Source: a virus. From it: a DNA stretch of 48,318 nucleotides. The translations under genes and the position numbers were made by a program. Location of the stretch: the IMG/VR virus record IMGVR_UViG_3300035688_000010, positions 1 to 48,318 of that record. One strand, written 5' to 3'. Under the pieces are notes generated by a model, which made no database searches, had not been told where the DNA came from, and saw only the letters and a list, made by a program, of their open reading frames with translations. Positions 34,649-46,266 of this stretch are shown here, piece by piece (positions within the stretch are counted from its first letter, which is position 1; every line of letters starts with the position of its first letter).

Positions 34649-36450
34649 TGTTAGTAAAAACAAAATCATTCAGACAACCTAAAGTAGAATATGCCAGAAC
34701 TCATGACATGGATAAACTTGCTTTTGTCTTGAAGATAAAGAAAGCGGTTGAGAATGGTGGGCGTGGTATAGTATCCGAACTGGCCCGGGAACATGGAATA
34801 ACAAGGCAGACAATTTACAACATGGTGCGTTCTCCGGTTGATGTTAATTCTATCCAAGAGAAAGTAAAGAAGATAGTTAAAGCGACAGGAGATAATTACA
34901 AACAGGCATTATATAATATAAGAGCCATCCGCAGAACCGAGAATCCAATTGACTTCATAGAATCAGAAGACCTCTTGAATTTTAAATTATTCCCAATGCA
35001 GAGATTGATAATAAAATGTTTCTATGGGATGCCTTTGGATGGCGGCGAGATGCAGATGATTAAGAAGTTAGAAAAAGAAGGACGGACTACTTACAAGGGG
35101 CCAAAGAAATATAGAGAGCTGGTTGTGAATGCAGGAATGAAATCCGGGAAGACACCTACTGCAGGAGTGATATCCTGTCTTGAAGAATATAATTGTTATT
35201 TGAAAGGCGACCTTGCCAAGCATTATGGATTCCCACCCGGGAAAGAAGTATATATCCTGAATGTTGCCGTGAATGGCGACCAGGCAAAGGAAACTATATT
35301 TGCAGAGATAAAGGCAAGAGTGAAGAACTCTCCGTATTATGCTTTGAGAAAACCTACAAATGAGACAGATACAAAATTCGTATTTGATAACAATGTTATC
35401 ATTCGTTCTGGACATTCAAATTCATCTTCTCTTGTAGGGCCAATCAATAAATTAGTTTGCTTTGATGAGTTGGCGAGGTTCACGGATCAGGGCGGCAAGT
35501 ATTCTGCGGATAGAGTCTATTATGCTCTTATTCGTTCTGTTGAACCATTCCAGGAAGATGGCAGAATAATAGATATCTCATCTCCATTATTCGATGGGGA
35601 TATTATATGTGACTTATATCACAAGTCAAAAGACATAGATAATATGTTGGGATTTCATATTCCAACTTGGGACTTCAATCCTAATCTTCCGTTCAAATCA
35701 GAACGTATGCAGAATGAGTTAAAGAAAAATCCAGAGGCATTCTGGAGAGACTTTGGTGCTCAACCTTCCATGTCTCAAGAATCATATTACAGAGACCCGG
35801 AGAGATTAGAGAAACTATTCGCTTCTTCTAAAAGAGAAAATCCAATTGATTCATCTGGTAAACTAAAATCTTGGTTCAAAGGAAAACCTGGAATGGCTTA
35901 CTATCTCCATGCCGACCCTTCAGTTAAGAACGATGCCTATGGCTTGTCCCTTGGACATCTTGATGGCAAGAGGACTATAATTGATTTAGCACATAGATTC
36001 ATTCCGGTGAAAGGCGGGGAGATAGATATCCGTGAAATAGAATTTTTTATCATGGACTTAATTCAGAGGGGATTTTCTATCAAACTATTTTCTTATGATA
36101 CATGGCAGGCAACTGGAATTGCTCAGTGTTTGAATCGGGCAGGTATAAAATCAGAGAATAGATTTATATTAAAAGATGAACACGATTATTTGAAAGAGTT
36201 GATTTATACTGAGAATATTGATATATATATGAGCGAGGTATTACTGAAAGAGTTAAAGGGGCTTGATTTGTTAGCAGGTAAAAGAGTTGACCATAAGAGA
36301 GGCGGTTCAAAAGATATAGCCGATGCAGTGGCAGGAGTGGCAATCTCCTGCAGGAGCAATCCGAGTGTGGAAGTAGGCATGGCCTCGTATGACCCTAAGG
36401 CATCCGACTTTACACCGGAACATAGAAATTCATTCTGGAGAGGACTATGA
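34648..36450 (+). CDS. terL: Terminase large subunit with N-terminal HTH
   Basis: 600 residues. Residues about 40-62 (GIVSELAREHGITRQTIYNM) are a helix-turn-helix usually found in small terminase subunits. ATPase: Walker A AGMKSGKT (162-169) and Walker B LVCFDELARF (Asp273, Glu274). Nuclease: YLHADPSVKNDAYGLSLGH (Asp423), SYDTWQATGI and DIADAVAG near 571. It cuts and packages DNA through the portal encoded next. The HTH may give sequence recognition. It overlaps the portal gene by ATGA. Confidence 0.9.
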   Translation: MLVKTKSFRQPKVEYARTHDMDKLAFVLKIKKAVENGGRGIVSELAREHGITRQTIYNMVRSPVDVNSIQEKVKKIVKATGDNYKQALYNIRAIRRTENPIDFIESEDLLNFKLFPMQRLIIKCFYGMPLDGGEMQMIKKLEKEGRTTYKGPKKYRELVVNAGMKSGKTPTAGVISCLEEYNCYLKGDLAKHYGFPPGKEVYILNVAVNGDQAKETIFAEIKARVKNSPYYALRKPTNETDTKFVFDNNVIIRSGHSNSSSLVGPINKLVCFDELARFTDQGGKYSADRVYYALIRSVEPFQEDGRIIDISSPLFDGDIICDLYHKSKDIDNMLGFHIPTWDFNPNLPFKSERMQNELKKNPEAFWRDFGAQPSMSQESYYRDPERLEKLFASSKRENPIDSSGKLKSWFKGKPGMAYYLHADPSVKNDAYGLSLGHLDGKRTIIDLAHRFIPVKGGEIDIREIEFFIMDLIQRGFSIKLFSYDTWQATGIAQCLNRAGIKSENRFILKDEHDYLKELIYTENIDIYMSEVLLKELKGLDLLAGKRVDHKRGGSKDIADAVAGVAISCRSNPSVEVGMASYDPKASDFTPEHRNSFWRGL

Positions 36451-38933
36451 AAATAACAGAAAGATTATTAGAAGGAATTGCAGGTGGTTTGATTGACAGG
36501 AAAGTTGGAGAGAAAGTAGATAAATTAAAAGAGGCACTTATTATTCCGCAGGATGGGATTGATAAAGATGAACATCTCTGGAGATTACTTACCAAAAATA
36601 AAAACAGAAATTTAGACCCGCTCACCCAAGACAGAATGATTGAGATTGCAGTCTGGTTGAATACGATGAATGGTTTCGCTCATCGTATACTTGAGATGAA
36701 CAAGGATTTTGTTATTGGCGATGGAATTCGTTATGAAGCCAAGGATTCTACAGTTAGAGAAATTCTTGATGAGCATTGGTATGATTCAGTTAATAACTGG
36801 TCTTTAAAACAATTCAATCGTGTAATGGAACTTGGATTATACGGAGAACAATTATATCCAGTGTTTGTGAATGAATATAATGGATTCGTAAGACTTGGAG
36901 TTATAGACCCTTCGCAGATTTCAAAGATAACAGTTAATCCAGAAAATGCAGAAGAGATGAAAACGATTGAACTTAAAACAAGTGCCGAGAATTCTGACAA
37001 ACCAAAAACATACAAAGTTATTGCTTTAGACATGGACCCGAAGTCAGAACAGTATGGATATAGAACAGGAGAAGCATTCTTCTTTGCAGTAAATAAATTA
37101 TCAACTGCTACCCGAGGAATTTCTGATTTACTTTCTATTGCAGATTGGATAGATGGTTATGAAAGATTTTTATTCAATCGACTTGACCGTTCACATTTAT
37201 TAAATCAGTTTATATGGGATATACTTCTTGAAGGTTATAACCCTGAACAGATAAAAGAATGGATGAAAGAATTTCAGATGCCTAAGCCAGGTTCTGTCCG
37301 TGCCCATAATGAAAAAGTAAAATGGGATGTTGTATCTCCCAAGTTAGAATCAGCAGATGCCTCGGAAGAAGCCAAGATGTTTAAATCCCATATTCTTGGA
37401 CAAGCAGGATTTCCACCGCATTACTTCGCGGAAGGAGAAGGTATTACTCGGGCTTGTTATTCAGAGGACACACAAACTCTAACCGAAAATGGCTGGAAGT
37501 TTCATTGGGAAATTGAAGAGAGAGAAAAAATAGCAACATACAATCCCAGAAAGGATTCTTTAGAATATCATATTCCAGTGAAAAAATATGTTTATGATTA
37601 CGAAGGAGAAATGTATCACTTTAAGAATCTTAGAACAGATATTCTAGTTTCCCCTGAACATAAGATGTATTTAAGAGAATCGCATAAAAAAGATTTTTGG
37701 ATTAAAGTTATGGCTAAAGATATATTTTATCATTCTTTTTATTTCAAAGAATCCCCATTATACTTCAATGGAAAGAATCAAGAATATTTTGAACTTCCAT
37801 TTAAACCCTATGATATACAATCCAGAAAAAAAGATTTCAAAAGAATTATACCAATGATTAATTGGTTGCCGTTCCTTGGTATTTTTATTTCCGAAGGATA
37901 TTTAAGAAAATCAAAAAATAGATACATCGTAAGAATAGCACAGAAAAAATATGTAGATGAATTTAGAAAATTAATTGCTTGTTTGGGTTTCGAATTCAGA
38001 GAAGATAATAACGGGAGGGGAGTAACAGTTTTTGAAATTGCCAATAAATCTCTTTATTTATATCTTTCAGAATTTATTGGTGAGAATAGTCATGAAAAGA
38101 GAATTCCAAAAGAATTTATGAATCTTAGTCAGGATTATCTTAATATTTTATTTCATAGTATGATAATGGGAGATGGAACTTTTCATGTTGGAAAAGGTGA
38201 AAACTATCTTACATATTATACTTCTTCAGAAAAACTTAGTGGTCAAATGCAAGAACTTTGTTTAAAACTTGGATACTCTTCAAGATGTTCTGAATCAAAG
38301 AAAGGAAAGTTTTCTTGGAAAACAATTTCTATAACTCCGATTAGAGAAAGAAACTTGAGAAAAAATAAAGATGTCTTCAAGGAAAAGTATAATGGAAAAA
38401 TTTATTGTTTTGATGTTCCAAATCATTTATTCATTACAAGAAGAAATGGAAAAATAGGAATACATTCTAACACCGCCATGGAAATGGGAACTCCGGTATT
38501 CAAGAGATTGAAAGCAAGACAGACTTATGTGAAATATATGGTTACGGAAATATTTGCTTTTGTAATTGACCAGGCAATTATTCATGGCAGACTGAAACCT
38601 GATGTAGATAGAAGTTTCAGTTTATTCTTTCCTAAACTCGCAGAAAAAGACTTCTCGGGTCTATCCACTGCAATATCGAATCTATCTAATGCATTAGTGG
38701 TTGGAGAAGACCAACAGTGGATTACAAAGGATTGGGCTAAGAAAGCATATCTATTTATTCTATCTCAATTTGGATTTGATATGCAAATAGAAGAAGGGCC
38801 TGTTAAAAATGATATGTCCGAATCCACTTATGAGTTCAAAGAATATCTCCAAGCGAAAGTTAAAGAGGCAAGAATGAAACTTAAAAAGTCTTGTAAACAA
38901 AATTCAGAAGAGATTGAAAAAAAGGAAGAATAA
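36447..38933 (+). CDS. Portal protein interrupted by an in-frame intein
   Basis: 828 residues as translated; 489 after removal of the intein (residues 337-675). N-terminal part 1-336 has portal features: WLNTMNGFAHRILEMNKDFVIGD, VIDPSQISKI, and the conserved ...HYFAEGEGITRA just before the intein; the C-extein resumes TAMEMGTPVFKRLKARQ with the helical crown region after it. Forms the dodecameric DNA gate of the head. The insertion site is a conserved portal segment, as is usual for inteins. Confidence 0.85.
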   Translation: MKITERLLEGIAGGLIDRKVGEKVDKLKEALIIPQDGIDKDEHLWRLLTKNKNRNLDPLTQDRMIEIAVWLNTMNGFAHRILEMNKDFVIGDGIRYEAKDSTVREILDEHWYDSVNNWSLKQFNRVMELGLYGEQLYPVFVNEYNGFVRLGVIDPSQISKITVNPENAEEMKTIELKTSAENSDKPKTYKVIALDMDPKSEQYGYRTGEAFFFAVNKLSTATRGISDLLSIADWIDGYERFLFNRLDRSHLLNQFIWDILLEGYNPEQIKEWMKEFQMPKPGSVRAHNEKVKWDVVSPKLESADASEEAKMFKSHILGQAGFPPHYFAEGEGITRACYSEDTQTLTENGWKFHWEIEEREKIATYNPRKDSLEYHIPVKKYVYDYEGEMYHFKNLRTDILVSPEHKMYLRESHKKDFWIKVMAKDIFYHSFYFKESPLYFNGKNQEYFELPFKPYDIQSRKKDFKRIIPMINWLPFLGIFISEGYLRKSKNRYIVRIAQKKYVDEFRKLIACLGFEFREDNNGRGVTVFEIANKSLYLYLSEFIGENSHEKRIPKEFMNLSQDYLNILFHSMIMGDGTFHVGKGENYLTYYTSSEKLSGQMQELCLKLGYSSRCSESKKGKFSWKTISITPIRERNLRKNKDVFKEKYNGKIYCFDVPNHLFITRRNGKIGIHSNTAMEMGTPVFKRLKARQTYVKYMVTEIFAFVIDQAIIHGRLKPDVDRSFSLFFPKLAEKDFSGLSTAISNLSNALVVGEDQQWITKDWAKKAYLFILSQFGFDMQIEEGPVKNDMSESTYEFKEYLQAKVKEARMKLKKSCKQNSEEIEKKEE
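37455..38471 (+). mobile_element. LAGLIDADG intein in portal (339 aa)
   Basis: Begins at Cys337 (CYSEDTQTLTENGWK, splicing block A) and ends GKIGIHSN followed by Thr676. Block B: LVSPEHKMYL. Two LAGLIDADG motifs: LGIFISEGYL and LFHSMIMGDGTF. Block F: YCFDVPNHLFI. The penultimate residue is Ser (HSN instead of the usual HN), with His one place earlier, so C-terminal cleavage may differ from canonical. Both endonuclease motifs keep their acidic residue (Glu, Asp), suggesting an active homing enzyme. Confidence 0.88.
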
Positions 38934-38943
38934 TAAAATTCAA

Positions 38944-39771
38944 ATGTTAAATGAGATTAGGTTTTTATCTTTATTTGCAGGAATTGGCGGTTTTGATTTA
39001 GGACTTGAAAGAGCAGGAATGAAATGTGTTGGGCAGGTTGAGAATAATAAATTTTGTTTAAAAATATTAGAAAAGCACTGGCAAAAAGTAAAACGAATTA
39101 AGGAGATTAAAAATGTCAATGGCAATGAGTTCGGAACAGTTGACCTTATTTGTGGCGGATTCCCTTGCCAACCTTTCAGTGTTACCGGGAAGCAAGAAGG
39201 CAAAACGGATGACCGCTATCTCTGGCCAGAAATGTTTAGGGTTATTAAAGCAGTCAAACCCACTTGGGTTGTTGGCGAAAATGTTTTTGGAATCATTGGA
39301 CTGGCACTCGACGATGTGTTATCTGATTTGGAAGGCGAAGGCTACGAAGTTAAGACATTTATTATTCCAGCTTGTGCCGTCGGTGCGTGGCATAGAAGGG
39401 ACAGAGTATGGATTATTGCCTACTCCACAGACAATGGACGCAATCGGTATGACCAGGGAAGTATTCAGGCGCGGGAAATCTTACAGAATAAAATCCAATC
39501 AGGGAGTAGAAGGGCAGGCAGGATTGAGGGATGTGGCAATGATGTATCCGTCGCCCTCGGCGACGGATTACAAAGGTTCGGGGAGACACGGGAAACCGAG
39601 AGACCGGCTGGATTACGCAGTGGAAAGGGGTGTGACGAAAAGCAGACTGTATCCAACACCAAGACTGAGAGATTCAGAAGGCGGAATATGTCAAGGAATT
39701 GCGGGAACGAGTCAGAGAATAAGCAAGGCAGGAATGAAACTTTCAAATATGGTGGGGTTCTGGGAATCTGA
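38944..39771 (+). CDS. dcm-like: DNA cytosine-5 methyltransferase (motifs I-VIII)
   Basis: 275 residues. Motif I FAGIGGFDLGLERAG, motif IV FPCQPFS with catalytic Cys, VVGENVFGI (motif VI, ENV), motif VIII GAWHRRDRVWIIAY. The TRD region follows (VALGDGLQRFGETRE; VSNTKTERFRRRN), then the frame stops at GGVLGI without motifs IX/X. Those motifs (KALGNAVVPQ) lie in the +1 frame, in the gene at 39113. A TTG start 10 codons earlier is possible. Complete activity would need a frameshift or the partner protein. Confidence 0.8.
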   Translation: MLNEIRFLSLFAGIGGFDLGLERAGMKCVGQVENNKFCLKILEKHWQKVKRIKEIKNVNGNEFGTVDLICGGFPCQPFSVTGKQEGKTDDRYLWPEMFRVIKAVKPTWVVGENVFGIIGLALDDVLSDLEGEGYEVKTFIIPACAVGAWHRRDRVWIIAYSTDNGRNRYDQGSIQAREILQNKIQSGSRRAGRIEGCGNDVSVALGDGLQRFGETRETERPAGLRSGKGCDEKQTVSNTKTERFRRRNMSRNCGNESENKQGRNETFKYGGVLGI

Positions 39772-39919
39772 ACCCGGAGTGGGTATGTTGGATCATGGGG
39801 TTCCCGAAAGGGTGGCTAAGTTGAAAGCTCTCGGAAACGCAGTAGTTCCGCAAGTCGTTGAAATAATTGGAAGGTATATAATGCAATTTGAAAAGGAAAA
39901 AAATGCCGATAACAAATGA
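39113..39919 (+). CDS. Overlapping +1-frame protein with MTase C-terminal motif
   Basis: 268 residues in the +1 frame, overlapping the methyltransferase by 659 bases, with its own SD (AAGGAG, 7 bases from the ATG). N-terminal SVLPGSKKAKRMTAISGQK and YLIWKAKATKLRHLLFQLVP, then GLLPTPQTMDA and YPSPSATDYKGSGRHGKPR belong, from memory, to a family widespread in phages beside cytosine methyltransferases. The C terminus FWESEPGVG...GVPERVAKLKALGNAVVPQ is methyltransferase motif IX/X. It may be a partner subunit or the C-terminal half. Both frames look protein-coding. Confidence 0.75.
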   Translation: MSMAMSSEQLTLFVADSLANLSVLPGSKKAKRMTAISGQKCLGLLKQSNPLGLLAKMFLESLDWHSTMCYLIWKAKATKLRHLLFQLVPSVRGIEGTEYGLLPTPQTMDAIGMTREVFRRGKSYRIKSNQGVEGQAGLRDVAMMYPSPSATDYKGSGRHGKPRDRLDYAVERGVTKSRLYPTPRLRDSEGGICQGIAGTSQRISKAGMKLSNMVGFWESEPGVGMLDHGVPERVAKLKALGNAVVPQVVEIIGRYIMQFEKEKNADNK

Positions 39920-39921
39920 AG
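39903..39921 (+). repeat. Direct repeat of the head-gene start, copy 1
   Basis: ATGCCGATAAC-R-AATGAAG, present here (R = A) and at 40209-40227 (R = G), 306 bases apart, with one mismatch. The second copy is the true start of the head morphogenesis gene. The first copy, inside the end of the overlapping gene, reads MPITNEGRR and stops. The gene at 39956 lies between them. Confidence 0.65.
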
Positions 39922-39955
39922 GAAGAAGATAAATTATTTAATGGAGGTAATCAAA

Positions 39956-40183
39956 ATGGTAAGAGCAAAATTTAGATGTGATAGTGTAAGAAAATATCGG
40001 CATTGGGATTGTAAAAAGGGTTTTTTATTTGAGGCAGAATTTAGTGCAGTAATGGACAATAGTGAGGATAACAAAAAATTCTGGGAAGCCACGCCTTCTG
40101 GCTCTATAAAAATTTCAACCTACAAGGAAGACATGTTTGAAGTTGGAAAGGAATATTGCCTTGATTTTATACCAGTAGATTAA
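39956..40183 (+). CDS. Conserved small phage protein (75 aa)
   Basis: ATG at 39956 lies 7 bases after GGAGGT; an ATG five codons upstream overlaps that SD and is rejected. Sequence VRAKFRCDSVRKYRHWDCKK, then SEDNKKFWEATPSGSIKI and VGKEYCLDFIPVD is the pattern of a very common phage protein of unknown role (recalled from memory), often near portal or head genes. Flanked by the direct repeat above. Confidence 0.75.
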   Translation: MVRAKFRCDSVRKYRHWDCKKGFLFEAEFSAVMDNSEDNKKFWEATPSGSIKISTYKEDMFEVGKEYCLDFIPVD

Positions 40184-40208: not shown

Positions 40209-40227
40209 ATGCCGATAACGAATGAAG
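40209..40227 (+). repeat. Direct repeat of the head-gene start, copy 2
   Basis: Matches 39903-39921 with one mismatch and forms the start of the head morphogenesis gene. See copy 1. Confidence 0.65.
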
Positions 40228-41045
40228 TAAGAAAAAAAATCGCTGATAAAATTAAAGAGATAACCAAACAAGGATTTGATTTGAATGATGAAGCCGCAAA
40301 ATCCTTTGTAGATTATATCGGCAAGATTCGAGATGACATAACCAAGAGAATAACTTCCGCAGAAGGTATAGATGCTATTCATCTCAAAGGCATAAAAAAA
40401 GATATAGAAGATATCCTGAATGAATTCAAAACCAAAGGCACTGAATCCCTGCAGAAGTTCCAGGACACCGGATACCAATTGGGTTCGGACTTGGTTACTG
40501 ACCCTCTCAAGTCTGCAGGCGTGAAGGTCGCTATTCCTGGCATATCCAAAGAACAATTAATCATTATGCAGAATATGTCCACAGACCTAATTTCAGGGGC
40601 TTCTGAAGAGGCTAAGGTTAAGATTAAGTCCGCTTTAAACCAAGCATTGCTCGGGGAGTTGACTCCCACCGAGGCCGCCCTGAAGGTGGATTCCGCCTTG
40701 GCAGGTCTTCAAGACAGAGGAGAGGCCATAGTGAGGACAGAGGTGGGCCGGGCATTCTCCATTGCCACCCAGATGCGGCAGGAACAGTATCAGAAAGCTC
40801 TTCCAAGTCTTAAAAAACAATGGTTGACCAGTATTGATGGCCGAGAAAGACCTTCTCATGCGGCCATTAATGGACAGATTAAAAATATAGATGAACCATT
40901 TGAAGTTCCTAACTACCGGACTGGAGGAACAGAAGAAGCAATGTATCCGCATGATCCAAATCTAAGTCCTGAAAATTCTGTAAATTGTCGTTGTGTAATT
41001 TTACCCATAACAGATGAATGGGCTTCTCAGGAGGAAACAGTATGA
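40209..41045 (+). CDS. Mu F-like head morphogenesis protein
   Basis: 278 residues. Helical N-terminal two thirds, then the Mu F/SPP1 gp7 signature: VRTEVGRAFSIATQMRQEQY, WLTSIDGRERPSHAAINGQ and SPENSVNCRCVILPI at the C terminus. Such minor head proteins act next to the portal in procapsid assembly or are injected. SD weak (TTTTGGGAGTTCAAGA). Confidence 0.85.
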   Translation: MPITNEVRKKIADKIKEITKQGFDLNDEAAKSFVDYIGKIRDDITKRITSAEGIDAIHLKGIKKDIEDILNEFKTKGTESLQKFQDTGYQLGSDLVTDPLKSAGVKVAIPGISKEQLIIMQNMSTDLISGASEEAKVKIKSALNQALLGELTPTEAALKVDSALAGLQDRGEAIVRTEVGRAFSIATQMRQEQYQKALPSLKKQWLTSIDGRERPSHAAINGQIKNIDEPFEVPNYRTGGTEEAMYPHDPNLSPENSVNCRCVILPITDEWASQEETV

Positions 41046-41455
41046 AAAAGAAAATCAAGAAAGCAAGCAAAAAAAAACAGAAGGGAGGAAAGAAAATGTT
41101 TGGATTAGGAAAAGAAAAAGAAAAGAAACCAGAAGTGAAACCCGAGGTCATTGGCAGTTCAAATGATTCTCCAAATAAGGTATCTCCCGAAGAACCAAAA
41201 GAAACCATTCCAGAAACCGATGCAACTATTCCAGAAACTGGCGATATACCAGAGCCAGAAAAAACACAGGAGGCAGAAGACATGACACTTACAAGCAAGA
41301 AAGAACCGGAAAAGAAGAAAGAAGTATTGAAGATTGATGGCAAAGAAGTCCGTTCCGTTTACGAGTTCAAAACCTACATTGTTTATGATTTTGTAGGTGG
41401 CGGCAGAAAGAAAGTCATGAAGAAAGATATCAAAAAAGATGAAGAAGGAAAATGA
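41042..41455 (+). CDS. Charged, disordered head-module protein
   Basis: 137 residues. ATG at 41042 follows CAGGAGGAAACAG. A second in-frame start at 41096 also has a strong SD (AAGGGAGG, 7 bases upstream) and would skip the Lys-rich first 18 residues, so two forms are possible. Contains a long acidic Pro/Glu region (SPEEPKETIPETDATIPETG), then a short folded-looking part (VLKIDGKEVRSVYEFKTYIV) and a basic end. Could be a scaffold or a linker. ATGA overlap with the large gene that follows. Confidence 0.65.
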   Translation: MKKKIKKASKKKQKGGKKMFGLGKEKEKKPEVKPEVIGSSNDSPNKVSPEEPKETIPETDATIPETGDIPEPEKTQEAEDMTLTSKKEPEKKKEVLKIDGKEVRSVYEFKTYIVYDFVGGGRKKVMKKDIKKDEEGK

Positions 41456-44400
41456 ATTCTGAATTTTTGATTGATTTATTTTGTCAAGACTTAACAGAGG
41501 GTTTAAGACCAGCCTTCGGTTCTCCGGGTGGTAAGAGATTATTGGCTTCAACAATAGTATCTTACTTCCCGGAGCATAAGGTTTATGTAGAACCATTTGT
41601 AGGTGCAGATGCTGTATTCTTTAAAAAGAAACCTTCGCAAGAAGAAATTTTGAATGATAAAGATTCCGAAATTGCTTTTGCTTATAAATTCATAAAACAG
41701 ATGACAGAATCGGATGTCAAAAATTTACAAAAATTTAAATGTAAATTTGATAGAGATTATTTTTACAAACTTGTAGATTCAAAACCAGATAATGAAATAG
41801 GAAGATTTCATCGTTTTATTTATCTCAATGCTTTTTCCTTTGGTAAATCAATGAACAGCACAGTCAAGAATGCTGGAGGTATTGGCATAAAAGATATATC
41901 TCCCAGATGGCCAAGATTTTTAGAACTCAAAGATAGATTTAAAAATGTTAAAATATACAATAAAGATTGGAAAGATATTGCAAAAGAATATGATGACAAA
42001 AATACTCTATTCTATTTTGACCCGCCATATTTTACTCAGCAAGGACATCTTAAGACAGATATAACACCCGAGGTAATTAATGATTTTCTAAAAAAACTCA
42101 AGGGCAAGTTTCTATTAAGTTTTGCAGGCGAACAAAACGAGAGAAAATATTTTCCTACTTTTAGTTGTAAAAATTTAAAAGTCAAAAGATTTTTAAATCA
42201 GAAGACTTCTAAGATACATGAGGATAACGAGATACTGCTTTCTAATTTTGGATGGTCAAAAAATAAAGAATGGTTGGCGGAAGAAGTATTTCAGGAATTT
42301 CATAAAGAGAATTATAATCCCGTCAAAGATACCGATGCACAGTTGCGGGATAATTGGCGTTTGATATTAGCAAAGTATCATGATGAATTTACTGAAGAAA
42401 GAAAAACAGAATTCAAAGATATTGATGAAGTCATAAAATATGCAAGAATGATTTTAGATGAATTATTAAAACGAGGTTCTTCCGTTGCTACCTTCCACCC
42501 AGATAATATGACAGAATATTCTTTGAGTTTATTAACATCTCTTTTGAAAGAAAAAATAAAACAAAGATTATTTATTGCTAATCCAGAAGCAATTAAGAGA
42601 GGAAGTTCTGAATATATTATGCCTAAACAATATATTCTTGGACAATTTCAAATATTGAATGATGGCAAACAATCTTATGGATTTATTAGACTTGGAATTC
42701 CTCTTGAAGATAATAATAAAATGTATGTGTATCCAATTACTGATTTCATTCCATTTGAAAAACCAATAAATGATGTTGCACCTAAGGGCACTCAAACTTT
42801 CTGGTCTGGGACAATCCTCCATGAAAATACTCAGGAATTCATGCCAGAGCGTTATCAACCTCAAGAACTCCAAAAATTAAATGACTTGGAGCTTATCCAG
42901 AGACACGCCGAGATTGTCAGGATTTGGAAAGAACGAGGTGCCCGGGCCAATGATGAAATGGCGATTAACTCCCATGCCTTTGTAGCCGATGAATTGAAAA
43001 GGCGAGGTTTGGAACATCGCTATAATGAAGATATAGATAAACTTTCAACTGCGGACTTCCCTGTAAAATCAGTGGATGGGAAGTATACTCTTGAAGATGC
43101 ATTAAAATTCTTCAATACGGATTTTTATCTCAAGGATCCATTCCTGGCTCTAACAGGTGGAACAGTGGTTTCTGGCGAAGGTCATGATTGGGATATCTGG
43201 GTTAACTGGAATAATCCTCGGGTAAATCATAGTTGTCCTTATTGTGAGAGATTCCTTCAGCAATTAAGATTCAGATTGCAGTCTCAACTTCCCGAGGAAC
43301 TGCAATCACTCATTCATCTGGTTCCAGAAACGGAAGGCAAGTTTACAAACTACACTCCACTGGCCCGAATGAAAGTTGAATTTATGAAACCAGAAGAGAG
43401 AACATTAATGAGAATGTCTTTGAAAGAACAGGCAAGAGCCGCTTCTAAAGAAGTAAATGCAGAAGCAGAATTATCTTTGAAAGAAGATAAGTTAAAACTA
43501 TTCAGATTTTTCTATGGAATGAAACCCACTCGTTCCGCAGTTCCAAACGAAAGAATGACAAAGGAATTCTTTTTGAGTTTATTTGATGTTGCAGACTTTC
43601 CAGTTTTTTCCAGTAAAAAATTTGATGGAATGCGATGTATAATTTTTGTGGATAATGAAAAAAATAAAATAGAAATATGGAGTGAGGATGGAGAAAATAT
43701 AACTGATAGAATTCCAAATATCGTTAATGCCTTAAGTAAAGCAAAATTAAGTAATGCTATATTTGATGCTGAATTAGAAAAATGGAAAGATGGAAAACAC
43801 TATCCACGAGAAGCAGTTGCAGGTTATATTCACTCCATCGGAGAGCCAGATGATTCAGATATAGTTATGAATATATTCACGGTTCCATTCTATAATGGTA
43901 TTGACTTTCACAATAAAACTGAAAGTGATAGGCAAGAAGTATTATCTGAGACTAACTTTCCTGATTCCCAATCTACCTGGGAAGTTCCTGATACAAAAAT
44001 AAAAATCAATATAGTTCCGAATACAATATCAAATAATATTCAGGAACTTTCAAAGGCATTAGATTTTGTTTCTGACAAACCTGCTTCAGAAGGAATAGTT
44101 GCTAAGAAAGCAAACTCCAAATATTATCTGGATGTTAATTCAAAAGAGGGATGGATTAAGTATCATAAGAATGTTTTATTCTATCCTATAATAATTGAAA
44201 GAGTAAAAACTAAAGTTCCAACTATTTTCAATTATAGATATGGAGTTGATATTGGAGATATGGGGACAGGGAATGAACCTCTGATAGAAATAGATGGCAG
44301 AAAGATAATTGAAGTTGGTTTGACTTTCAATACTGCAGAGAAATTAGAACGAGGAGATATGATTGCAGTTGAAGCCGAGACTATAAATTTAACTGATGAT

Positions 44401-46266
44401 AATGAGAATAATAAAATATTAATTTCTGCTTGGGTTCCAAGATTTATTCCTCTGGATAAAACTTTAGAAAAAGTTCCGAGTGAACCTGATACTTTAAAAT
44501 CTCTTATTCAGAAAGCGGCATTCTCTGAAGTATTGCAACGAAAGACAATTAACAAAGATGGCATAACATTATATGAATCTGAATTCTCCCTGGAAGATAT
44601 GCAACCAAATGAGAGTTTTCATATAGATTATTCTTTCCTTTCAGATGATGATTTCTTTGAAATAAAAGAAACAGAAATTCCAATTCTTAAAGAAGCAAAA
44701 ATGCCACTTGAATCTTATCCCAAGAATTATGGGGTATTTGTTAATCATTTCAGAGGAAAATCCGTTCATCTGGATTTCAGAAGAAGACAGAACGGATTCT
44801 TGCAAGGCGAGACTCTGATGAACGAACCCGCAGGATTGATTACGGAACCAGTAGATACAATCGAGGAAGGCAAGAAGTGGAATGAGGTTCTTCTTAAGAA
44901 AGGTAAATTCAGACCGGACATGGACCCGAATCAGAAGGTAGTTATGGTAGATAAGGCTCAACAGCCTCTCGAATGGTTGAATGCCAGAGAGGTAATATTT
45001 GAACCCGGGCAGGTTGGGGCCACTAAAGAGAATTATGGGGTTCTAATTACCTTCGATGAAGGCATGGTCTATCCGGGAGTCCAGAAAGCATACTTCCGGG
45101 AGTTCTTCTTGGATATGAAAAATTTCAAAGGACGGATGGTTGAACGGGCCATCGGGGTTGGTAAGGAGTGGGAGAAGCCACCTGCAGGACAGACTGTTCA
45201 ATGGCAAGCATGGACTAATATGGTTGAGCAGACTCCTTATCTTTTAACTTCCCGAGGTAGAGAAAAACACGAGGATGTTCCACCCGAAGGAGTCTCCTGG
45301 TTGCCTCCCGAATGGGAAGCGAAGGTTCCACCTGATATGCGTTGGTGGAAGCCAGGACTATCTAATGAACAAAAATTAGCACTTATGGATAAAGCATATA
45401 ACTCTTTAATTGCGAGTGGAGAACTCAAAGATAAACCAATAAAAGAAGAAGAAGTTATTATCCAAGAGAAAAAAGCAAAATTTATCTTAAGATGGCATTG
45501 GTGGAAGGGCCAAGAAGTTATTCGTAATATGCCCGCAGTTGCCTCTCATTGGGATTTGGTAATAGATACCGGGAAGGATTATCTTGATGAATGGAATATC
45601 TGGCAGGATCCATTGATAACTGAAAAGGCAACTGCAGACAGAAAGGTTTGTAATCTTAAATCCCCGATGGGAGATTCAATTCATGGTTGGCTAACTTTCG
45701 AGGGGAGTATACCTGCTATTGATTCTAAAGTTGAAGAAGTAGAAGTGATTAAAAAAATCGAAGAAGTAGAAGTGATTAGAGAAATACAAAATGGAATATA
45801 TTCTGTAAAGAAAAAGAATGGAGATATAATTGAAACCAAAGAAACTTATGCAAAGTTCAAACCTGAACAGATTGCATATTTAGACCAATATAAAAATTTA
45901 TTTACCGGAAAATTAGGTGGTGCCGCTTACGGAAATCCAAATCAAAGAATTCCTGCATATATGCAAATATTGGATTCTGGTAATGTTGAATGGTTAGAAG
46001 ACAATGCTAACTTTGCTTCTTTCAAATTCAATGGTAAAATACTTGATGGATATTGTATTATGAAAAGAGAATCTCCGCAATCTACTATTTGGACATTCTC
46101 AAAAAGTGAATTACCAGTAAAAGAAGAGATATCTGTAGAACAAGAAAACAGAACCATAAAAGTATCCAACCTAACTAAACCAGTAGATGTCAATTTCAAT
46201 GGCAGGGAATATGTCCTGATACCCACCTCGTCGGGAAAATTAAGGCTTGATATTAAGAATAAATAA
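41452..46266 (+). CDS. Multidomain DNA methyltransferase-nucleotidyltransferase-ligase protein
   Basis: 1604 residues in one frame. About 20-270: D12-class adenine methyltransferase (GSPGGKRLLA; YVEPFVGADAVFF; FYFDPPYF with DPPY at 190-193). About 545-640: nucleotidyltransferase-like (GGTVVSGEGHDWDIWV, Asp579/Asp581), with a CPYC pair. About 690-1000: ATP-dependent DNA ligase, KFDG with Lys723 nucleophile, IFDAELE (770-776), SEGIVAKK (879-886) and WIKYHK (901-906). About 1090-1240 and 1340-1420: segments like LigD 3'-phosphoesterase (SVHLDFRRRQNGFLQGETL; ASHWDLVID). A further 150 residues follow. Lies between a head protein and capsid protease, which suggests a virion or capsid-linked role. 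Cleavage into pieces is possible. Confidence 0.85.
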   Translation: MNSEFLIDLFCQDLTEGLRPAFGSPGGKRLLASTIVSYFPEHKVYVEPFVGADAVFFKKKPSQEEILNDKDSEIAFAYKFIKQMTESDVKNLQKFKCKFDRDYFYKLVDSKPDNEIGRFHRFIYLNAFSFGKSMNSTVKNAGGIGIKDISPRWPRFLELKDRFKNVKIYNKDWKDIAKEYDDKNTLFYFDPPYFTQQGHLKTDITPEVINDFLKKLKGKFLLSFAGEQNERKYFPTFSCKNLKVKRFLNQKTSKIHEDNEILLSNFGWSKNKEWLAEEVFQEFHKENYNPVKDTDAQLRDNWRLILAKYHDEFTEERKTEFKDIDEVIKYARMILDELLKRGSSVATFHPDNMTEYSLSLLTSLLKEKIKQRLFIANPEAIKRGSSEYIMPKQYILGQFQILNDGKQSYGFIRLGIPLEDNNKMYVYPITDFIPFEKPINDVAPKGTQTFWSGTILHENTQEFMPERYQPQELQKLNDLELIQRHAEIVRIWKERGARANDEMAINSHAFVADELKRRGLEHRYNEDIDKLSTADFPVKSVDGKYTLEDALKFFNTDFYLKDPFLALTGGTVVSGEGHDWDIWVNWNNPRVNHSCPYCERFLQQLRFRLQSQLPEELQSLIHLVPETEGKFTNYTPLARMKVEFMKPEERTLMRMSLKEQARAASKEVNAEAELSLKEDKLKLFRFFYGMKPTRSAVPNERMTKEFFLSLFDVADFPVFSSKKFDGMRCIIFVDNEKNKIEIWSEDGENITDRIPNIVNALSKAKLSNAIFDAELEKWKDGKHYPREAVAGYIHSIGEPDDSDIVMNIFTVPFYNGIDFHNKTESDRQEVLSETNFPDSQSTWEVPDTKIKINIVPNTISNNIQELSKALDFVSDKPASEGIVAKKANSKYYLDVNSKEGWIKYHKNVLFYPIIIERVKTKVPTIFNYRYGVDIGDMGTGNEPLIEIDGRKIIEVGLTFNTAEKLERGDMIAVEAETINLTDDNENNKILISAWVPRFIPLDKTLEKVPSEPDTLKSLIQKAAFSEVLQRKTINKDGITLYESEFSLEDMQPNESFHIDYSFLSDDDFFEIKETEIPILKEAKMPLESYPKNYGVFVNHFRGKSVHLDFRRRQNGFLQGETLMNEPAGLITEPVDTIEEGKKWNEVLLKKGKFRPDMDPNQKVVMVDKAQQPLEWLNAREVIFEPGQVGATKENYGVLITFDEGMVYPGVQKAYFREFFLDMKNFKGRMVERAIGVGKEWEKPPAGQTVQWQAWTNMVEQTPYLLTSRGREKHEDVPPEGVSWLPPEWEAKVPPDMRWWKPGLSNEQKLALMDKAYNSLIASGELKDKPIKEEEVIIQEKKAKFILRWHWWKGQEVIRNMPAVASHWDLVIDTGKDYLDEWNIWQDPLITEKATADRKVCNLKSPMGDSIHGWLTFEGSIPAIDSKVEEVEVIKKIEEVEVIREIQNGIYSVKKKNGDIIETKETYAKFKPEQIAYLDQYKNLFTGKLGGAAYGNPNQRIPAYMQILDSGNVEWLEDNANFASFKFNGKILDGYCIMKRESPQSTIWTFSKSELPVKEEISVEQENRTIKVSNLTKPVDVNFNGREYVLIPTSSGKLRLDIKNK

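Follow-up and report, generated by a model that had tools for sequence, protein, structure and literature searches.

Two overlapping genes on the same strand of a viral DNA very probably encode the two polypeptides of a single C5-cytosine methyltransferase, in which the small protein (B) is nested within the gene for the large one (A), and the copy described here is shifted by one base relative to its family. The DNA is a stretch of 48,318 nucleotides, comprising the whole of positions 1 to 48,318 of IMG/VR record IMGVR_UViG_3300035688_000010, and is referred to as the window. The two frames and their overlap are laid out as follows:

38944..39771, + strand: frame A, the large subunit of a C5-cytosine methyltransferase, motifs I–VIII (open reading frame, PF00145 and phrog_363)
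39100..39105, + strand: Shine-Dalgarno sequence AAGGAG, inside frame A (sequence, and the Shine-Dalgarno signal at the B starts of relatives)
39113..39919, + strand: frame B, in the +1 frame, a nested small-subunit-like protein of phrog_1008 (open reading frame, profile match and shuffles)
39113..39771, + strand: two-frame overlap of 659 bases (open reading frames, shuffles and two-frame selection in relatives)

Frame A is open from its ATG at 38944 to the stop at 39771 and matches both PF00145 (2e-46) and phrog_363 (5.6e-67). It contains motif I, the PC motif (IV), ENV (VI) and RxR (VIII), in keeping with the original prediction, which had placed motifs I to VIII in the first frame. Motif X lies beyond the stop of frame A as read, and motifs IX and X do not occur together in the A polypeptide, either as read or in the relatives. 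Frame B is open from the ATG at 39113 to the stop at 39919, and the AAGGAG is positioned 7 nt upstream of this ATG. Its product matches the phage family phrog_1008, which bears the label 'DNA methyltransferase', at 1.3e-31 over residues 4–191 of 268, and the B protein of an intact relative matches the same family over nearly its full length (6e-72). As read, frame B continues into the motif X tail of A. The 659-base overlap, the independent Shine-Dalgarno sequence and the conserved phage-type protein in the second frame had all been proposed and are all present. Pfam and NCBIfam contain no match to B, a sequence search of the PDB with B returned no relative, and an Rfam search of the window returned no match.

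The same arrangement is found in relatives, where A comprises motifs I–VIII and X without motif IX, while B lies entirely within A and has motif IX at its end, with the consensus LNPxWVEWLMGFPxGWT. A count of the motif frames gave 190 loci in which A contains motif X and the +1 frame contains motif IX, the layout of a large subunit with I–VIII and X and a small one with IX; a single locus had motif IX in the frame of A. The relatives come from phages, or from genomes whose titles name Firmicutes, Bacteroidota, Pseudomonadota, Acidobacteria, Chlorobiota, Dehalococcoidales and others. A small-subunit gene nested in another frame, with a start of its own, is indicated by the open reading frames, by the shuffles and the sampling through A described below, and by the ribosome-binding signal. 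In relatives, a Shine-Dalgarno signal is present at 102 of 122 B starts compared with 28 of 122 in the control, and six-base matches number 39 and 0, respectively.

Several individual loci deserve mention. L185 (2450-3661) and L209 (2312-3825) belong to a second subfamily of C5 methyltransferases encoded in two frames, in which the +1 frame has a textbook motif IX. In L185 the +1 frame ends in VRRLTPAECERLQGFPDGWT, which by eye has 10 of 19 residues in common with the B consensus, and L245 has motif IX at this place in frame; the B frame of L209 is joined to motif I. The relative L002 (1744-3324) has a stop in A directly upstream of the PC motif, and its open reading frame in frame B has an HNH-like stretch upstream. 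In a prophage of E. coli strain E21 (L410:1420-2322), RefSeq annotates the large subunit only; the nested +1 frame is open and unannotated, with LNPAHSRWLMGFPPEW near its end.

The open state of frame B was compared with synonymous-codon shuffles of A, in which the protein and the codon use are kept. In 1000 shuffles of the window copy the B frame acquired a mean of 7.5 stops and was open in none, and the third frame actually contains 17 stops. The B profile score in the window is 212 bits, compared with at most 102 bits in 300 synonymous shuffles. Shuffling of 100 nonredundant relatives gave a mean of 6.3 stops and a mean open-frame chance of 0.0014. As these relatives were found through B, loci were also sampled with the first 50 residues of A, a stretch without B overlap, which removes the selection bias. 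In the complete loci of this second sample, the +1 frame runs on for 130 codons or more beyond the PC motif without a stop in 116 of 126 (median 198.5 codons), the third frame is open for a median of 15 codons and the stop of B lies a median of 21 codons upstream of the end of A. In 158 of 162 A-sampled loci, window included, the real +1 frame scored higher on the B profile than every synonymous shuffle; in two of the four that failed (L193 and L245), motif IX is in frame with A and B is absent.

Further support for the coding function of both frames came from the pattern of silent change in the relatives. When these are aligned by A, conservation of the wobble base is close to the shuffle expectation before B and after the stop of B, and is clearly raised between the two. 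At the LNPxWVEWLMGFP of B, wobble identity is 0.85–0.96 at most of the conserved columns, compared with approximately 0.27–0.5 expected; it is 0.53–0.62 at the W and F codons of the motif, and the x positions are variable. At most motif IX columns B is more conserved than A. At the fourfold-degenerate sites of A, differences in four of five groups amount to 0.17–0.34 in the overlap, compared with 0.63–0.73 before and 0.65–0.69 after it. In the Lacticaseibacillus group the values are 0.111 in the overlap, 0.169 before and 0.347 after, so that the contrast is weak relative to the stretch before the overlap and clear relative to the stretch after it. The amino acids of A are more variable within the overlap than before it, and the low silent divergence does not, therefore, result from stronger constraint on A.

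That B is an accidental open frame is ruled out by the shuffles, the wobble constraint and the conservation of motif IX. It could instead be argued that B is not translated at all, that it is conserved as a side effect of A or of constraint at the nucleotide level, and that A alone is the enzyme. Synonymous shuffles of A do still give the B profile some score, with a median of means of 40 bits, but the real frames have a median of 144 bits and exceed all shuffles in nearly every A-sampled locus. In addition, the wobble constraint starts and stops with B, A has no motif IX in frame, and the B starts carry a Shine-Dalgarno signal, making an untranslated B highly improbable. From sequence comparison, it is strongly supported that the overlap is truly dual-coding, with both frames kept in hundreds of independent loci. 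This is what the original prediction had suggested for the window, and the comparison of synonymous sites across homologues that it had proposed as a check showed raised conservation in the overlap, clearly so in four of five groups. The result that it had named as a refutation, homologues in which stops close the second frame, was not obtained.

The window copy differs from its relatives at the ends of both proteins, where three further features are found:

39738..39768, + strand: interval of the one-base shift relative to the family (stop-codon frame logic and profile scores)
39771..39815, + strand: motif IX (NPEWVCWIMGFPKGW), in the third frame here and normally at the end of B
39827..39853, + strand: motif X (ALGNAVVPQ), in frame B here and normally in frame A

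Within the shift interval, the GGGG at 39754-39757 is the likeliest place of the extra base. Reading one base fewer around 39753-39759 raises the A profile score from 308 to 373 bits and that of B from 208 to 246 bits; since both scores are lifted, a single change accounts for both tails. With one base fewer, A reaches motif X, B reaches motif IX and two products stay, giving the motif layout of the relatives, which the window does not have as read. Originally, motifs IX and X had both been placed at the end of the second frame, and the loss of one G was expected to fuse the two frames. Motif X is indeed there but motif IX is in the third frame, and instead of fusing, each frame regains its own tail. 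The region had also been described as not simply a recent frameshift and as encoding a split or frameshifted methyltransferase. The dual-coding pair is old, and a split into two polypeptides is supported; however, the window copy does carry a one-base shift that exchanges the tails, and a fused enzyme is not the form of the relatives, which have two nested proteins.

Eight other loci are shifted, four of them in the same direction as the window (L138, L225, L255 and L391) and four in the opposite one (L150, L163, L367 and L399), with shift intervals that lie approximately 140 to 620 nt downstream of the PC motif. A conserved shift site was not found among the relatives, which are in frame apart from these few, scattered loci. 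The scatter and the two directions fit sporadic indels or assembly errors and not a programmed site. No IMG/VR record was found to share the sequence around the G-run, whether the extra base is included or left out.

These observations bear on a functional role for the window's frame order, in which a programmed +1 slip on GGGG would take some of the ribosomes translating A to motif X and yield two or three products. On the four Gs, a glycine tRNA paired with GGG could move forward by one base and pair again, both tails lie directly downstream, and further shifted loci do exist. On the other hand, 190 relatives do without a shift, the shifted loci are scattered in site and direction, a search of IMG/VR gave no close relative that shares the G-run, and slipping in A leaves motif IX of B unrestored. 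Programmed slipping is thus considered very unlikely, and the sequence data make an indel or an assembly error the likelier origin of the extra base. There is about an even chance that the base is nothing but an error of sequencing or assembly in an ordinary intact nested pair, an explanation that concerns the window copy only and is compatible with the nested two-polypeptide enzyme. Removal of one base restores both family tails together and IMG/VR yielded no close relative with the same shift, but for a homopolymer error in the usual short-read data a run of four Gs would be short, and other records contain similar shifts. If the extra base is not an artefact of assembly, the window enzyme is probably impaired as read, as neither product is standard.

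Structure models suggest how the labor could be divided between the two proteins. The model of A from a Lacticaseibacillus relative has a mean pLDDT of 73.5, with values of approximately 95 in motif X and through most of the catalytic core. Residues 185-262 (approximately 78 residues) are below 50 and are predicted to be a disordered spacer between the catalytic domain and the motif X helix. The predicted structure contains no target-recognition domain. It matches only the catalytic domain of M.HhaI and, similarly, the catalytic half of other C5 enzymes, and the profile of the relatives' A proteins matches residues 12-179 of M.HhaI at 3.7e-34. The AlphaFold model of B, with a mean pLDDT of 59.6, is too weak to support a recognition role on structural grounds.

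As A lacks motif IX and a predicted recognition domain, it probably needs a partner, for which B is the obvious candidate. In the proposed mechanism, the ribosome would make A from its own start, giving a catalytic domain with motifs I–VIII, a long disordered spacer and motif X. B would be made independently, from the internal Shine-Dalgarno sequence and start codon, and carries a conserved N-terminal part and motif IX. The two proteins would then associate, with B completing the small domain that is absent from A. By analogy with known split enzymes and from the models, B most likely supplies motif IX in trans, and perhaps target recognition as well. The assembled enzyme would methylate cytosines, and its probable role is to shield the phage DNA from restriction by the host. 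In the window, the extra base near 39754-39757 puts motif X in the frame of B and motif IX in frame three.

The surroundings of the pair have features of their own. Upstream, an 828-residue, portal-like open reading frame (36447-38933) has an intein-like insert, matching LAGLIDADG_3 at 2e-9 and Intein_splicing at 7.5e-4, the latter under its cut-off. Downstream, a 1604-residue open reading frame (41452-46266) joins a D12 N6-adenine methyltransferase (3.6e-19) to an ATP-dependent DNA ligase domain (4.8e-16). The sequence ATGCCGATAAC(A/G)AATGAAG is present twice, where frame B ends (39903-39925) and at the start of a Mu F-like gene (40209-40232). It is as if the 5' end of this gene had been duplicated upon insertion of the methyltransferase and a small open reading frame (39941-40183). 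The GC content is 0.42–0.45 over the methyltransferase (39000-39999), compared with 0.27–0.39 in the 500-base segments from 36000 to 38999; the raised value may be due to an origin outside this genome or to the requirements of coding in two frames.

Taken more widely, it is rather probable that the nested alpha/beta form is the standard one for a large class of phage methyltransferases in many bacterial phyla, with the nested frame supplying target recognition or a scaffold. If so, these genes would be among the longest and most widespread same-strand overlaps in bacteria and phages, often missed by annotation. The retention of two proteins from the same 500–800 bases, in phages and prophages from widely different bacteria, is an unusually clear natural example of long-lived dual coding, which silent mutations could test. 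Since annotation can retain one frame only, some phage and prophage records lack half of what is likely a two-part enzyme. In practice, cloning a lone phage 'C5 methyltransferase' that lacks motif IX may give an inactive protein if the nested start is left out. In the open-access literature, no description was found of the spread of the nested form or of the strength of its dual coding, and nothing specific was found on nested or overlapping phage methyltransferases.

The architecture is already known from M.EcoHK31I, and both protein families are already in PHROGs. In M.EcoHK31I the beta gene is inside the alpha gene in another frame, and the products, of approximately 309 and 176 amino acids, are close in size to those here. 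The enzyme (YGGCCR) has motifs I–VIII and X in its large subunit and motif IX in the small one (PMC3404938). The family described here is alike in its two polypeptides and motif split, the likeness being drawn from descriptions of the enzyme. The predicted recognition domain of M.EcoHK31I is in alpha (PMC3404938), whereas A has a predicted disordered spacer instead. M.EcoHK31I also belongs to a restriction-modification system, whereas the present pair are phage genes, with no nuclease among the neighbouring open reading frames examined. In the window copy, unlike M.EcoHK31I, the tails are frame-swapped.

M.AquI is likewise a C5 methyltransferase split into two polypeptides with later motifs in the small subunit. 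Its large subunit carries motifs I–VIII and its small subunit IX and X, the split falling between VIII and IX, and fragments of M.SssI divided between motif VIII and the recognition domain assemble into an active enzyme (PMC3404938). The relatives described here differ in keeping X in A and only IX in B, with B nested through most of A. As read, the window copy resembles M.AquI without motif IX, and might conceivably work in this form, with motifs I–VIII in A, motif X in B and separate starts. Both open reading frames and the Shine-Dalgarno sequence of B are intact as read, and M.AquI is split between VIII and IX. Nevertheless, B of the window has X only, so that IX would be in neither protein, and both proteins score below their versions with one base fewer; this M.AquI-like function is unlikely.

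Close counterparts of the nested pair are in phages in which both genes are already annotated. In P. larvae phages the same phrog_363/phrog_1008 pair is nested at +1, both members being annotated 'DNA cytosine methyltransferase'. Escherichia phage K1G has the same +1 pair, annotated as 'C-specific methylase' and 'Mte8-like protein', and Lacticaseibacillus phage R9.1 has an intact pair too. The pairs in the P. larvae phages and K1G are intact, whereas in the window copy a shift of one base precedes the tails.
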